The notes beneath the pieces were generated by a model. That model was not told the DNA's origin, ran no database searches, and saw only the letters and a program-made list of their open reading frames with translations. A program made the translations under genes and the position numbers. From contig CALGNJ010000049.1 of assembly GCA_937958705.1 (NCBI GenBank), forward strand, positions 1 to 34,139: a stretch of DNA of 34,139 nucleotides. Reading direction: 5' to 3'. Of the stretch, positions 6,687 through 34,139 are shown in pieces. Position 1 is the first letter of the stretch. Each line of letters opens with the position of its first letter. Origin of the DNA: Minisyncoccota bacterium. Its GTDB lineage: Bacteria; Patescibacteriota; Minisyncoccia; Phycocordibacterales; GCA-2747955.

Positions 6687-7289
6687 CTATGCCTTTCTAC
6701 CTCTCAAAAACTTCTTCGCCATACCAAGAAAACCTAAGATCTTTGGTACATCATCAATAACACTGCCGTCGTTATCTAAATCCAACATTGACATAATTCC
6801 TGAATTTTTACCATCTTTTGACATCATCTTTGCTGCTCCACCAAGCATGGTTGAGAGCGTCTCTGAATCCATTCCAACTGCTTGTTTCTCCTTACCTAAC
6901 GCACCCAAGATAAGTGGTGCAAATGTAGACATCATCTTCATGGTTGAGTCTTTATCACCCCCTGTTTCCCTCTCGATGACTTGTTCCACATCTTGCGTCT
7001 TATCACCAAATACGTATCCAAGAATCTTAGCGCCATCTTGTTCTAAATCCCCACCCATCACTGAGTCCAGGTTATCAAAAATAGATCCGTCATGTTTGTT
7101 AAGTGCATTTGCTAGTTTACCCGCACCTTCAGGAGTCTTTGCATTTTTCGCCATAGCTCCGGTCATTGCTGGTGTCATCTTATTTAGGACCGTTTGTGCG
7201 GTCTTTGGATCAACACCTACCTCTCTGGCTACCTTTTCAACAATATCATCAGAAAAGTTACCTATCATTCCTTGTAATAAATTATCCAT
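6687..7289 (-). CDS. DUF937 family protein
   Basis: 'VAREVGVDPKTAQTVLNKMTPAMTGAMAKNAKTPEGAGKLANALNKHDGSIFDNL' and 'ILGYVFG' match the DUF937/YidB style. Confidence 0.85.
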   Translation of the reverse strand: MDNLLQGMIGNFSDDIVEKVAREVGVDPKTAQTVLNKMTPAMTGAMAKNAKTPEGAGKLANALNKHDGSIFDNLDSVMGGDLEQDGAKILGYVFGDKTQDVEQVIERETGGDKDSTMKMMSTFAPLILGALGKEKQAVGMDSETLSTMLGGAAKMMSKDGKNSGIMSMLDLDNDGSVIDDVPKILGFLGMAKKFLRGRKA

Positions 7290-28597: not shown

Positions 28598-28633
28598 ATG
28601 AAAAAGACGGCTGAGCCGTCTTTTTCATTTATA
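28593..28633. terminator. Bidirectional terminator overlapping both convergent stop codons
   Basis: Perfect 20-bp arms TATAAATGAAAAAGACGGCT-G-AGCCGTCTTTTTCATTTATA; TAA of each flanking gene lies in an arm. Confidence 0.88.
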
Positions 28634-29186
28634 GTACCTTTCTTGTTGAGTATCGAGCCAAGAAGACAAGCCAAAGAATTACTAAGAATACAGTAAGTGC
28701 CATCAGTGGAATAGTAATGAATCCCCAGATCAAAACATGGTTTGTGGTGCATGATGGGATAATCCCAATTCCAGAACACGGCATCGTTAATATATTGTCG
28801 AAGATAGCCACCTGTACGTGAAAGTAGTAATGCACCGAAGCAAAGAAGGATCCGATTGCTGCGAGTATTCCTATAATTATCTCGTTGAATTTAATTTTTT
28901 TCCAAACAGTCACCAAAACAATAACATCTATTGGGAACATGAAAATTCTTTGCCACCAACAGTACTCACACACCGGTGTTTTATACACAAACTGATACAC
29001 AAGTGCCCCAATGGTTGCAAGGATAGAGAGCACTCCAATTAATTTTATATATACAAAATAATCTACTCCCTGCATCTTCACACGTGCCTGTCTTGAAAAA
29101 GCAAATGCCAGAATACTTATAATTGTAGTAATTGACAGCAACACAAGTGCCGCCGAAAGCACTACCGAATATTGTTCTAAGTTCAT
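28629..29186 (-). CDS. Disulfide bond formation protein DsbB family
   Basis: 'YQFVYKTPVCEYCWWQRIFMFPIDVIVLV' and a later cysteine pair in a four-TM protein. Confidence 0.92.
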   Translation of the reverse strand: MNLEQYSVVLSAALVLLSITTIISILAFAFSRQARVKMQGVDYFVYIKLIGVLSILATIGALVYQFVYKTPVCEYCWWQRIFMFPIDVIVLVTVWKKIKFNEIIIGILAAIGSFFASVHYYFHVQVAIFDNILTMPCSGIGIIPSCTTNHVLIWGFITIPLMALTVFLVILWLVFLARYSTRKVL

Positions 29187-31856: not shown

Positions 31857-31954
31857 ATCGTTCGAGCCTTCCCCTTCCAGGTATTCTAAAACCCTTGGTG
31901 ACAAGGGCTTAGAAAAGTGCTGACAAAGCTTAAAAAAGTTCGAACCAGTGTGGT
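31857..31954 (+). repeat. Interspersed ~98-bp direct repeat, copy 1
   Basis: ATCGTTCGAGCC...TTCTAAAACCCTTGGTGACAAGGGCTTAGAAAAG + 37-nt core TGCTGACAAAGCTTAAAAAAGTTCGAACCAGTGTGGT (31918-31954). Confidence 0.93.
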
Positions 31955-31974
31955 GGAGGTGAGAGGTATTTAAG

Positions 31975-32385
31975 CTAAGAGAAAAGTAATTCGGCCAACA
32001 TCTTTATCACCTCTTGATGTTCTTCGGTACCCTCCTGCGCTATATAAACAGCTAATTCATCAAGAGTAAAATCTCTGTAGGCTGGAACGAGACCATTTGC
32101 TTCACAGACTATCTCAAATGTCATGCATGCCGTTCTCTTGTTTCCATCTGTAAACGCATGGTCTTTCACAAGAAACCAAAGATACGCTACACACTTTTCT
32201 TCTGTTGTTTTATAAAAATCCTGACCACCAAAAGAACCAAGGATGTTTCCAACTAACGCATCAACTTTAGATTCTGATTCTTGAGCAATCATAAAAGAAA
32301 CTTCACCTTGTTGATGAAGAATCTTATATATTCGACAGATGTGCTTTGACTCGAGAGGTTGAAATGTCTTTTTTCCCTTCGTCAT
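31975..32385 (-). CDS. Doc/Fic-family toxin (death-on-curing type)
   Basis: 136 aa with 'HAFTDGNKRTA' Fic/Doc core motif. Confidence 0.88.
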   Translation of the reverse strand: MTKGKKTFQPLESKHICRIYKILHQQGEVSFMIAQESESKVDALVGNILGSFGGQDFYKTTEEKCVAYLWFLVKDHAFTDGNKRTACMTFEIVCEANGLVPAYRDFTLDELAVYIAQEGTEEHQEVIKMLAELLFS

Positions 32386-32497
32386 ACTGTTTTAATGAGC
32401 TTAATACTTGTTTATTTTGCTTAATTTTACGCATTGCCAAAGACCTGAATTTCACATCAGTTCTTTTTTTGGTAAATTTTTGTAACAAGTTATTCAT
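32324..32497 (-). CDS. Candidate antitoxin overlapping doc start, 57 aa
   Basis: MNNLLQKFTKKRTDVKFRSLAMRKIKQNKQVLSSLKQYDEGKKDISTSRVKAHLSNI*; immediately upstream of and overlapping the Doc gene out of frame; absent from ORF track. Confidence 0.6.
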   Translation of the reverse strand: MNNLLQKFTKKRTDVKFRSLAMRKIKQNKQVLSSLKQYDEGKKDISTSRVKAHLSNI

Positions 32498-32554
32498 GTG
32501 ATTATTTTATCATAATTATAAAGAATATCTTTATACCGATTTTTACAACAAGAA

Positions 32555-32651
32555 ATGATTCGAGCCTCCCTTTCCAGACATTCTAAAACTCTTGGTAACA
32601 AGGGCTTAGAAAAATGCTGACAAAGCTTAAAAAAGTTCGAACCAGTGTGGT
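32555..32651 (+). repeat. Interspersed ~98-bp direct repeat, copy 2
   Basis: ATGATTCGAGCC...TTCTAAAACTCTTGGTAACAAGGGCTTAGAAAAA + identical 37-nt core (32615-32651); one base shorter than the other copies. Confidence 0.93.
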
Positions 32652-32697
32652 AGAGATGAGGGGTTGTTTGGTATAGATATCAAATAATGTGGTTACT

Positions 32698-33441
32698 TTA
32701 ATTTGCCTCCAACGTGCTCTTCACATGTATCTTTGCTAATTTCCACTCAGGAAACTCATACAAATAAGATGCGTTAACCGAAAGATTTACCTCAGAATTA
32801 AAAGACTCGATTATCAGGAAATTATATCCTACCTCTTCCTGCATGACTGGTTCTTTGGTAATAATGACATGTTCACTCAAAACAGGTGGGAATGTTTTTC
32901 CTGCATCAATATTTTCTGGTAAAAGCTCTTGGTTTAATTCTGATAAAGAAATTTGGTTTTTCCATAATTGTGAGATATGAACGTCATACATTTCCTTCAT
33001 AGTTCCTAGATACATACCTCTTTGCAATAAAGTATGTGTTTGGAGATTTAGCCATTTAAGCTCCTCAGCAGAAGGAATTTCCGCCTTAGTATCATGTCCA
33101 TCTGATGCATTTACTCTAGTTAAAGTCTCTTGATTAACTATTAGCGTATCCTTATCTACTAACTGATAATCAAAGTTCTTTGCAAGAAATAGTAAACCTG
33201 CAGAAAAATTCTCTTTTCCAAATGACTGCATTGGCGCCTTCAGCGAATAGCTTGTTTTTTCTCCTTCTGTTTTATACGAAACACGCCCCTGAGAGAACAC
33301 CTGTAAGGTTGTGTTGTTGCTTGACCATGCCCCAACAATATTTTCATACCCATCTATCTGAGGATTATGAGTTAAGTTCGTAACCACATAAGCCCCTAGC
33401 AGCATAATTACGAGCCCTACGATTATAAATACTTTTTTCAT
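32698..33441 (-). CDS. Membrane-anchored secreted protein of unknown function
   Basis: 247 aa; N-terminal MKKVFIIVGLVIMLLGAYVVTNL then soluble domain; lies between repeat copies 2 and 3. Confidence 0.72.
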   Translation of the reverse strand: MKKVFIIVGLVIMLLGAYVVTNLTHNPQIDGYENIVGAWSSNNTTLQVFSQGRVSYKTEGEKTSYSLKAPMQSFGKENFSAGLLFLAKNFDYQLVDKDTLIVNQETLTRVNASDGHDTKAEIPSAEELKWLNLQTHTLLQRGMYLGTMKEMYDVHISQLWKNQISLSELNQELLPENIDAGKTFPPVLSEHVIITKEPVMQEEVGYNFLIIESFNSEVNLSVNASYLYEFPEWKLAKIHVKSTLEAN

Positions 33442-33457
33442 AAACTCATTATAGCAA

Positions 33458-33555
33458 ATGGTTCAAGCTTCCTCTTTCCGGCTATTCCAAAAGCCTTGGC
33501 AACAAGATCTCTATAAAATGCTGACAAAGCTTAAAAAAGTTCGAACCAGTGTGGT
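33458..33555 (+). repeat. Interspersed ~98-bp direct repeat, copy 3 (most diverged arm)
   Basis: ATGGTTCAAGCT...TTCCAAAAGCCTTGGCAACAAGATCTCTATAAAA + identical 37-nt core (33519-33555). Confidence 0.92.
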
Positions 33556-33641
33556 GCAAGCACGCACTAACTGTGTATTTACGTAGATATGAATTTATGT
33601 TTTAATATAACTCGATATAGCTCATTAGATGGAGAGAAAAA

Positions 33642-34139
33642 ATGACTAAAGCACCACAACGTTTCATGCTGAATGTAATGAACGATACTAAGCTGGACTC
33701 AGGAGGAAGAGCGGTTATGTTCCCTGTCGCAAAGACAAGAAAAGGAACTGTAATTTTTGCTACCTGTGCTCATGCAGTCGAGAATCACTCTGGGCGCATC
33801 CAAATGACAGTCTTTGACCACAACGGCGAGAATGTAGAGTATGCTGGTAATACTCAGAACTGGATTATTCCACCAGAGATTGGCGCTGACTTAGTTTTCA
33901 TTGATATGCCTGTCTCAGATATATCTAAATTCCAGCCAGTGCGTCTTCAAAAAGACAAAGTCTCAACAGGAAAAGATATTACATACACCAGAAATGTAAT
34001 GTACAAAAAAGACTTTCCTGAACAAATCCTCTTAACAGAGACAAGCCCAGTAAAACACATCAAAACAGAAACATATGCTCGGAGCTCTAAAGGTTTTGAT
34101 ACCCTACCTACTGGTCATAATTCGAGAGGTAGAAATTAC
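33642..34139 (+). CDS. Trypsin-like (S1-fold) protease domain protein, truncated at right edge
   Basis: Open 166-codon frame to the window end: MTKAPQRFMLNVMNDTKLDSGGRAVMFPVAKTRKGTVIFATCAHAVE...GADLVFIDM...TGHNSRGRNY; 'TCAHAV' resembles the catalytic-His motif. SD GGAG upstream. Not in ORF track. Confidence 0.6.
   Translation, partial: MTKAPQRFMLNVMNDTKLDSGGRAVMFPVAKTRKGTVIFATCAHAVENHSGRIQMTVFDHNGENVEYAGNTQNWIIPPEIGADLVFIDMPVSDISKFQPVRLQKDKVSTGKDITYTRNVMYKKDFPEQILLTETSPVKHIKTETYARSSKGFDTLPTGHNSRGRNY

Follow-up and report, generated by a model that had tools for sequence, protein, structure and literature searches.

Three direct repeats at the end of a Patescibacteria contig as probable attachment sites of a tRNA-anchored, integron-like cassette array

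What are the three same-orientation repeats, each of about 98 bp, that bound single accessory genes at the end of contig CALGNJ010000049.1 (GCA_937958705.1) of a Minisyncoccota bacterium? An initial annotation had seen in them a cassette-like array. On comparative sequence evidence we consider it probable that they serve as the attachment sites in a tRNA-anchored, integron-like gene-cassette array with site-specific exchange at AGC(A). The window, i.e. the whole stretch of 34,139 nucleotides that was analysed, is all of contig C49 (of 49) of its genome (G000; 607 kb, 86% complete), stretches of which were read contig by contig, excluding C9, C10 and C29, contigs without readable bases; several of its contigs share exact 141-bp overlaps.

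The repeats themselves are as initially described. They lie on the same strand at the positions listed below, the other copies being 91% and 76% identical to copy 1 in a repeat search, and a genome-wide search of G000 delimits them as 31857-31965, 32559-32660 and 33458-33556; since the between-copy E-values are 1e-35 and 2e-22, they are not due to chance. The 37-nt core initially described, TGCTGACAAAGCTTAAAAAAGTTCGAACCAGTGTGGT, is indeed the same in all three copies (31918-31954, 32615-32651 and 33519-33555). Each repeat is a composite junction in which, in minus-strand order, a left arm (L) is separated by the motif AGCA from a right arm (R) that contains a hairpin. The window L arm is ACCACACTGGTTCGAACTTTTTTAAGCTTTGTC (minus strand), and the hairpin-bearing R arm terminates in an inverted tRNA-like arm, CTCGAAC. 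The sites and the genes referred to here are as follows.

31857..31954, minus strand: site c1 (L arm 31954-31922, AGCA 31921-31918, R arm with hairpin 31917-31857), after the Doc gene
32555..32651, minus strand: site c2 (L arm 32651-32619, AGCA 32618-32615, R arm 32614-32555), after the gene for the 247-aa secreted protein
33458..33555, minus strand: site c3 (L arm 33555-33523, AGCA 33522-33519, R arm 33518-33458, the most diverged R)
31975..32385, minus strand: cassette gene for a Fic/Doc-type toxin, 136 aa (PF02661, E=1.8e-8)
32327..32497, minus strand: small open reading frame, 57 aa, overlapping the doc start, a candidate antitoxin from its sequence, with no Pfam match
32698..33441, minus strand: cassette gene, an open reading frame for a 247-aa protein with an N-terminal hydrophobic segment
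33642..34139, plus strand: open reading frame past site c3, 166 aa, running off the contig, protease-like by eye only
28629..29186, minus strand: DsbB-like gene (PF02600), a backbone marker whose homolog in the related genome G007 lies ~2.4 kb after tRNA-Gln(CTG)

The Pfam match upholds the Doc toxin of the initial annotation, and the two minus-strand genes do end close to the core, with stop-to-core distances of 19 and 45 nt (counted by hand). The trypsin-like protease announced after copy 3 is present as a truncated plus-strand open reading frame, but its "trypsin-like" character is a matter of motifs seen by eye: neither this 166-aa product nor the 247-aa secreted protein has a Pfam match at E<=0.05. 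Because C49 ends inside the gene to the right of c3, the array may extend past the visible sequence. A search of Rfam gave nothing at gathering scores, and the match of copy 2 to Bacilli-1 (E=0.11) was dismissed as chance.

The genome-wide repeat search, which the initial annotation had proposed, retrieved a single further copy in G000, a partial one of 62 bp on contig C21, 91 bp from the contig end, which continues straight on from the tRNA-Gln(CTG) 3' end. Only R, the sequence past the core, is matched by this copy; each repeat thus joins two halves that can be separated. The tRNA-Gln 3' terminus is the AGC(A) point where site similarity stops, and a hairpin follows AGCA by ~5-16 nt in most of the 14 sites that were aligned. 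Most likely C21 leads into C49 from the right end and thus carries the upstream end of the same array, because tRNA-Gln(CTG) adjoins homologs of the window's 22-29 kb region in G007, which belongs to another genus of the same family, and in G008, the fourth genome compared, where the tRNA gene points the opposite way. The remaining genome, Candidatus Pacebacteria CALLVB01 (G009), is of the same genus as G000 and of a different species; all comparisons are based on draft genomes, both array-bearing ones (G000 and G009) being draft metagenome bins. At its tRNA-Gln(CTG) locus G009 has a window-type R, but preceded by a different L, and the window-type L is located after a patatin-like gene (Pfam Patatin E=4e-4, below its cut-off). 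The cargo of the locus is Doc and the secreted protein in G000 versus YbjQ and the patatin-like protein in G009.

A second array lies between the M23 peptidase gene and yidC. It is complete in G000 across the exact 141-bp overlap of C37 and C42, in the order M23, site 1, NUDIX gene (PF00293), site 2, 62-aa gene, site 3, yidC. The L arm of site 1 is an exact 22-nt copy of the tRNA-Gln(TTG) 3' end, sites 2 and 3 share a third L type, CATAAAAAGTTCTAACATCGTCCCACATCTCT, which is interrupted in site 3 by a 55-bp dispersed hairpin, and the R arm has a hairpin different from that of the window R. On one unbroken contig of G009 the same locus reads M23, tRNA-Gln-like first site, 128-aa gene, site, 224-aa gene, site, 170-aa membrane gene, yidC, so that both arrays start at a tRNA-Gln-like 3'-end fragment. 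None of the three G009 genes is the NUDIX or the 62-aa gene of G000, and the YidC proteins are 88% identical; a search of 247 genomes of the order, run without a positive control, gave no homologs of the 224-aa protein. M23 and yidC lie ~75 bp apart in G007, an empty locus with no site, and no yidC match was found in G008.

The comparison of whole repeat-to-repeat units that had been suggested at the outset has thus been possible at yidC, where the enclosed genes are entirely different in the two species. That the same two loci, tRNA-Gln(CTG) and yidC, hold arrays with differing cargo in both G000 and G009 argues strongly for turnover, and it is not the picture of repeats scattered at conserved positions without turnover that the initial annotation had named as refuting its proposal. 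The arrays enclose genes of accessory type (Fic/Doc, NUDIX, patatin-like, YbjQ and orphans). The differences in cargo between species at the same locus also count against a dispersed element that acts in regulation or termination and takes no part in exchange, as do the identical 37-nt L core outside the hairpin and the failure of any window site to score as a terminator on the cassette-gene strand; R is a hairpin, one yidC-type R of G009 scores as terminator-like and the window copies have GNRA-like loops on the plus strand, and still we hold a terminator to be the least probable of the explanations considered. Scarcely better placed are ordinary tRNA-targeting integrative elements or satellites, inserted serially and decayed to single genes so as to leave direct repeats of the tRNA 3' end. 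The first sites are tRNA-Gln 3' ends and G000 has a phage-like contig with a tyrosine recombinase (C22), but the units are intact single genes of 0.2-1 kb that retain no trace of an integrase, the majority of L arms do not copy the tRNA end, and the C22 integrase was dropped as a donor because its gene has no tRNA-Gln 3' end nearby.

The arms of the sites have been exchanged at a fixed point. The 14 sites were aligned at AGC, and L (30 nt) and R (55 nt) were scored separately against shuffles. Arm similarity ends at AGC or AGCA, and the L and R types switch exactly at AGC in a four-gamete pattern, all four pairings being present: L(tRNA)-R(CTG), L(ii)-R(CTG), L(tRNA)-R(yid) and L(ii)-R(yid). 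Most shared arms have z = 7 to 25, unshared arms are mostly near zero, and some pairs of tRNA-like or interrupted arms are intermediate (z 4 to 6), all of these values being pattern descriptions and not probabilities, given that the anchor was picked by eye and the sites are mutually related. It could be argued that the 70-100-bp repeats arose once, spread by duplication and serve as passive homology patches, by which related strains exchange the genes in between through homologous recombination or natural transformation. The similarity of copies within an array, 76-92% over ~100 bp, would in principle suffice for RecA-type exchange, and turnover would follow without a special enzyme. Homologous recombination, however, needs more identity than the AGC(A) that is all the joined L and R types have in common; it may shuffle existing units but cannot account for new chimeric sites. 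A site-specific process is therefore the better explanation of the junctions, chimeric L/R sites being something that site-specific strand exchange can make and homologous recombination not easily, and we consider the homology-patch explanation unlikely.

In the cassette array that we favour, a site would consist of L, AGCA and R, and a cassette of R, the gene and L-AGCA. Cassettes would be gained or lost through site-specific strand exchange at AGC(A), the point where tRNA-Gln, or a fragment resembling its 3' end, terminates; insertion would proceed by single gene units, each of them bringing a new junction. Cassettes may move as circles or as single strands, in an exchange that would be enzyme-catalysed. 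Several observations weigh against such an array. The gene beside c3 is read from the plus strand, against the orientation of the other enclosed genes; the sites are known from only two genomes, G000 and G009; the C21-C49 join is one that we infer; and no circle, excision product or strain pair is among the support. Whole-site DNA folding is not significant (z-scores between -1.9 and +1.8), the sites match dif at 10-13 of 28 positions, fewer than the 19-22 attained by unrelated stretches of the genome, the arms around the core are complementary at no more than 6 of 9 positions, which is to say that inverted repeats are absent there, and no recombinase is encoded within the arrays. The cassette idea of the initial annotation has gained a tRNA-anchored first junction, a second array, complete gene turnover between two species and an arm swap at a fixed point, but neither a recombinase, nor evidence of excision, nor a link to true integrons. 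Weak matches to the repeat across 297 genomes of the order (E 0.002-0.01) are near chance for that number, and exact pattern scans of IMG/VR for the L arms gave no match.

Which enzyme might act at these sites? G000 has two tyrosine recombinases, the resident Xer beside pyrH and that of C22 (L068), a phage-like contig of 7.7 kb with a YqaJ-type exonuclease and replication genes. With TIGR02249, the integron integrase IntI model (cut-off 265), they score 130 and 85 bits, and absence of IntI is not proven because the genome is only 86% complete. The canonical attC R boxes (RYYYAAC / GTTRRRY) are absent by inspection of the aligned sites, whose arms read GTTCGA..., in agreement with the initial annotation. 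True attC identity was dropped since boxes and folding both fail, and Xer/dif modules because the dif consensus fails. Serine recombinases were not found in G000, nor the IS110 transposase in any of the four genomes tested. Y1_Tnp proteins (PF01797, RAYT-type HUH) number two in G000, both encoded on C7, one in G009 and none in G008 and G007, a distribution like that of the sites which in four genomes, none complete, is only suggestive; the second tyrosine recombinase is distributed in the same way. Two kinds of enzyme are candidates: a tyrosine recombinase, either the resident Xer or that of a phage-like element, and a RAYT-type protein of the Y1/HUH class. A Y1 enzyme would fit, because the sites have a short, fixed motif with a hairpin after it and no inverted-repeat core. 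IS200/IS605 and RAYT/REP systems insert beside a fixed short motif with a hairpin nearby and without target duplication; they resemble the arrays in motif and hairpin, and both of the genomes with arrays encode Y1 proteins. Unlike those systems, the arrays show no direct link to a Y1 protein: one Y1 gene, RAYT-type (L053:1283-1998, at the start of C7 of G000), has on either side the palindrome GAGTTCCAATCTGGATTGGAACTC, which differs from the array sites. Capture unrelated to integrons, in which single genes would be inserted at the AGCA of tRNA or tRNA-like 3' ends by an enzyme other than IntI, perhaps a single-strand transposase of RAYT type, maybe with junction chemistry common to the X elements described below, is a serious though tentative possibility.

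By the tests made, the organisation is integron-like and not an integron. As in integron arrays (PMC2727003), mostly single genes are each followed by a recombination-site-like repeat, mostly in one orientation, with a fixed anchor and accessory turnover, and exchangeable single-gene cassettes at a fixed anchor, an integron criterion, are found here; unlike them, the arrays have no IntI at cut-off, no attC R boxes and no significant whole-site folding, the anchor is a tRNA 3' end and the junction lies at AGCA in mid-site. Acinetobacter pdif/dif modules are likewise small, lie between site-specific recombination sites, are movable without a recombinase of their own and often carry toxin-antitoxin genes, whereas the present sites are far from dif, directly oriented, chromosomal and at tRNA-type sequences (PMC6449649). 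Satellites and islands that target tRNA genes, such as tycheposons (PMC10872708), also add accessory DNA at a tRNA 3' end, but the arrays consist of tandem single-gene units without their own integrase and with two kinds of exchangeable arms. Our literature search found no cassette-capture system described for Patescibacteria. If the cassette-array reading is correct, reduced genomes would renew accessory genes (toxin-antitoxin, NUDIX, patatin-like, orphan) in integron style, and integron-like arrays would be able to arise without IntI and attC; at the yidC locus the system is directly testable through strain comparison.

Other structured repeats accompany tRNA genes in these bacteria. Element X (model R1, modelled at 108 nt) stands behind ~1/3 of the tRNA genes read in G000, flanked by an inverted, often also a direct, copy of its own tRNA's 3' end. 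Among 148 genomes sampled from the order, 46 match its covariance model; 10 of 19 loci from other genomes have a tRNA bearing such copies just upstream, and three more have a tRNA- or tmRNA-like 3' end by eye. The X loci searched have no Rfam match. After X at tRNA-Leu, the acceptor end and terminator are repeated exactly (49 nt), a layout that reads as that of the gene arrays with an RNA-like insert instead. The rtT repeats of E. coli tyrT lie downstream of a tRNA gene, each with a copy of the tRNA 3' end; they resemble the X elements, but no protein genes are swapped between them. On G063:C1, in a 10-kb stretch with no tRNA, two large open reading frames (622 and 579 aa) lie between two X copies (L161:3077-3199 and 6937-7059) that are separated by 3.9 kb and share 98% identity over 123 nt. 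Some tRNA genes have a copy of their own 5' end (17-29 nt) at ~70-170 bp upstream.

L058:10878-10979, L101:6225-6327, L101:6628-6729, L096:13581-13695: X (model R1) directly behind tRNA genes
L054:231-335, L099:1819-2045, L091:6796-6899, L051:12529-12654: X (model R1) directly behind tRNA genes
L101:6530-6558, L013:13488-13514, L054:595-619, L077:10032-10052, L091:6526-6549, L094:5440-5456: tRNA 5'-end copies

Two hairpin families complete the inventory. One, of ~110 bp and at least 15 dispersed copies, has conserved internal loops and sequence-variable stems and often stands just after genes; despite a short CTTTGTCAGC-like stretch in common with the window core, it was put aside as a different family. 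The 55-bp hairpin (CACCACAAGAGTAYTTCCATTTTTATA...TTAGGTC) lies inside other hairpins and terminators, and is the one inside site 3 of the yidC array.

L049:18935-19045, L065:5930-6042, L053:14697-14812 and others: ~110-bp hairpin family (alignment A1)
L088:350-425, L058:3611-3664, L092:1313-1368, L092:3138-3191, L065:5804-5882, L096 near 13790: 55-bp hairpin
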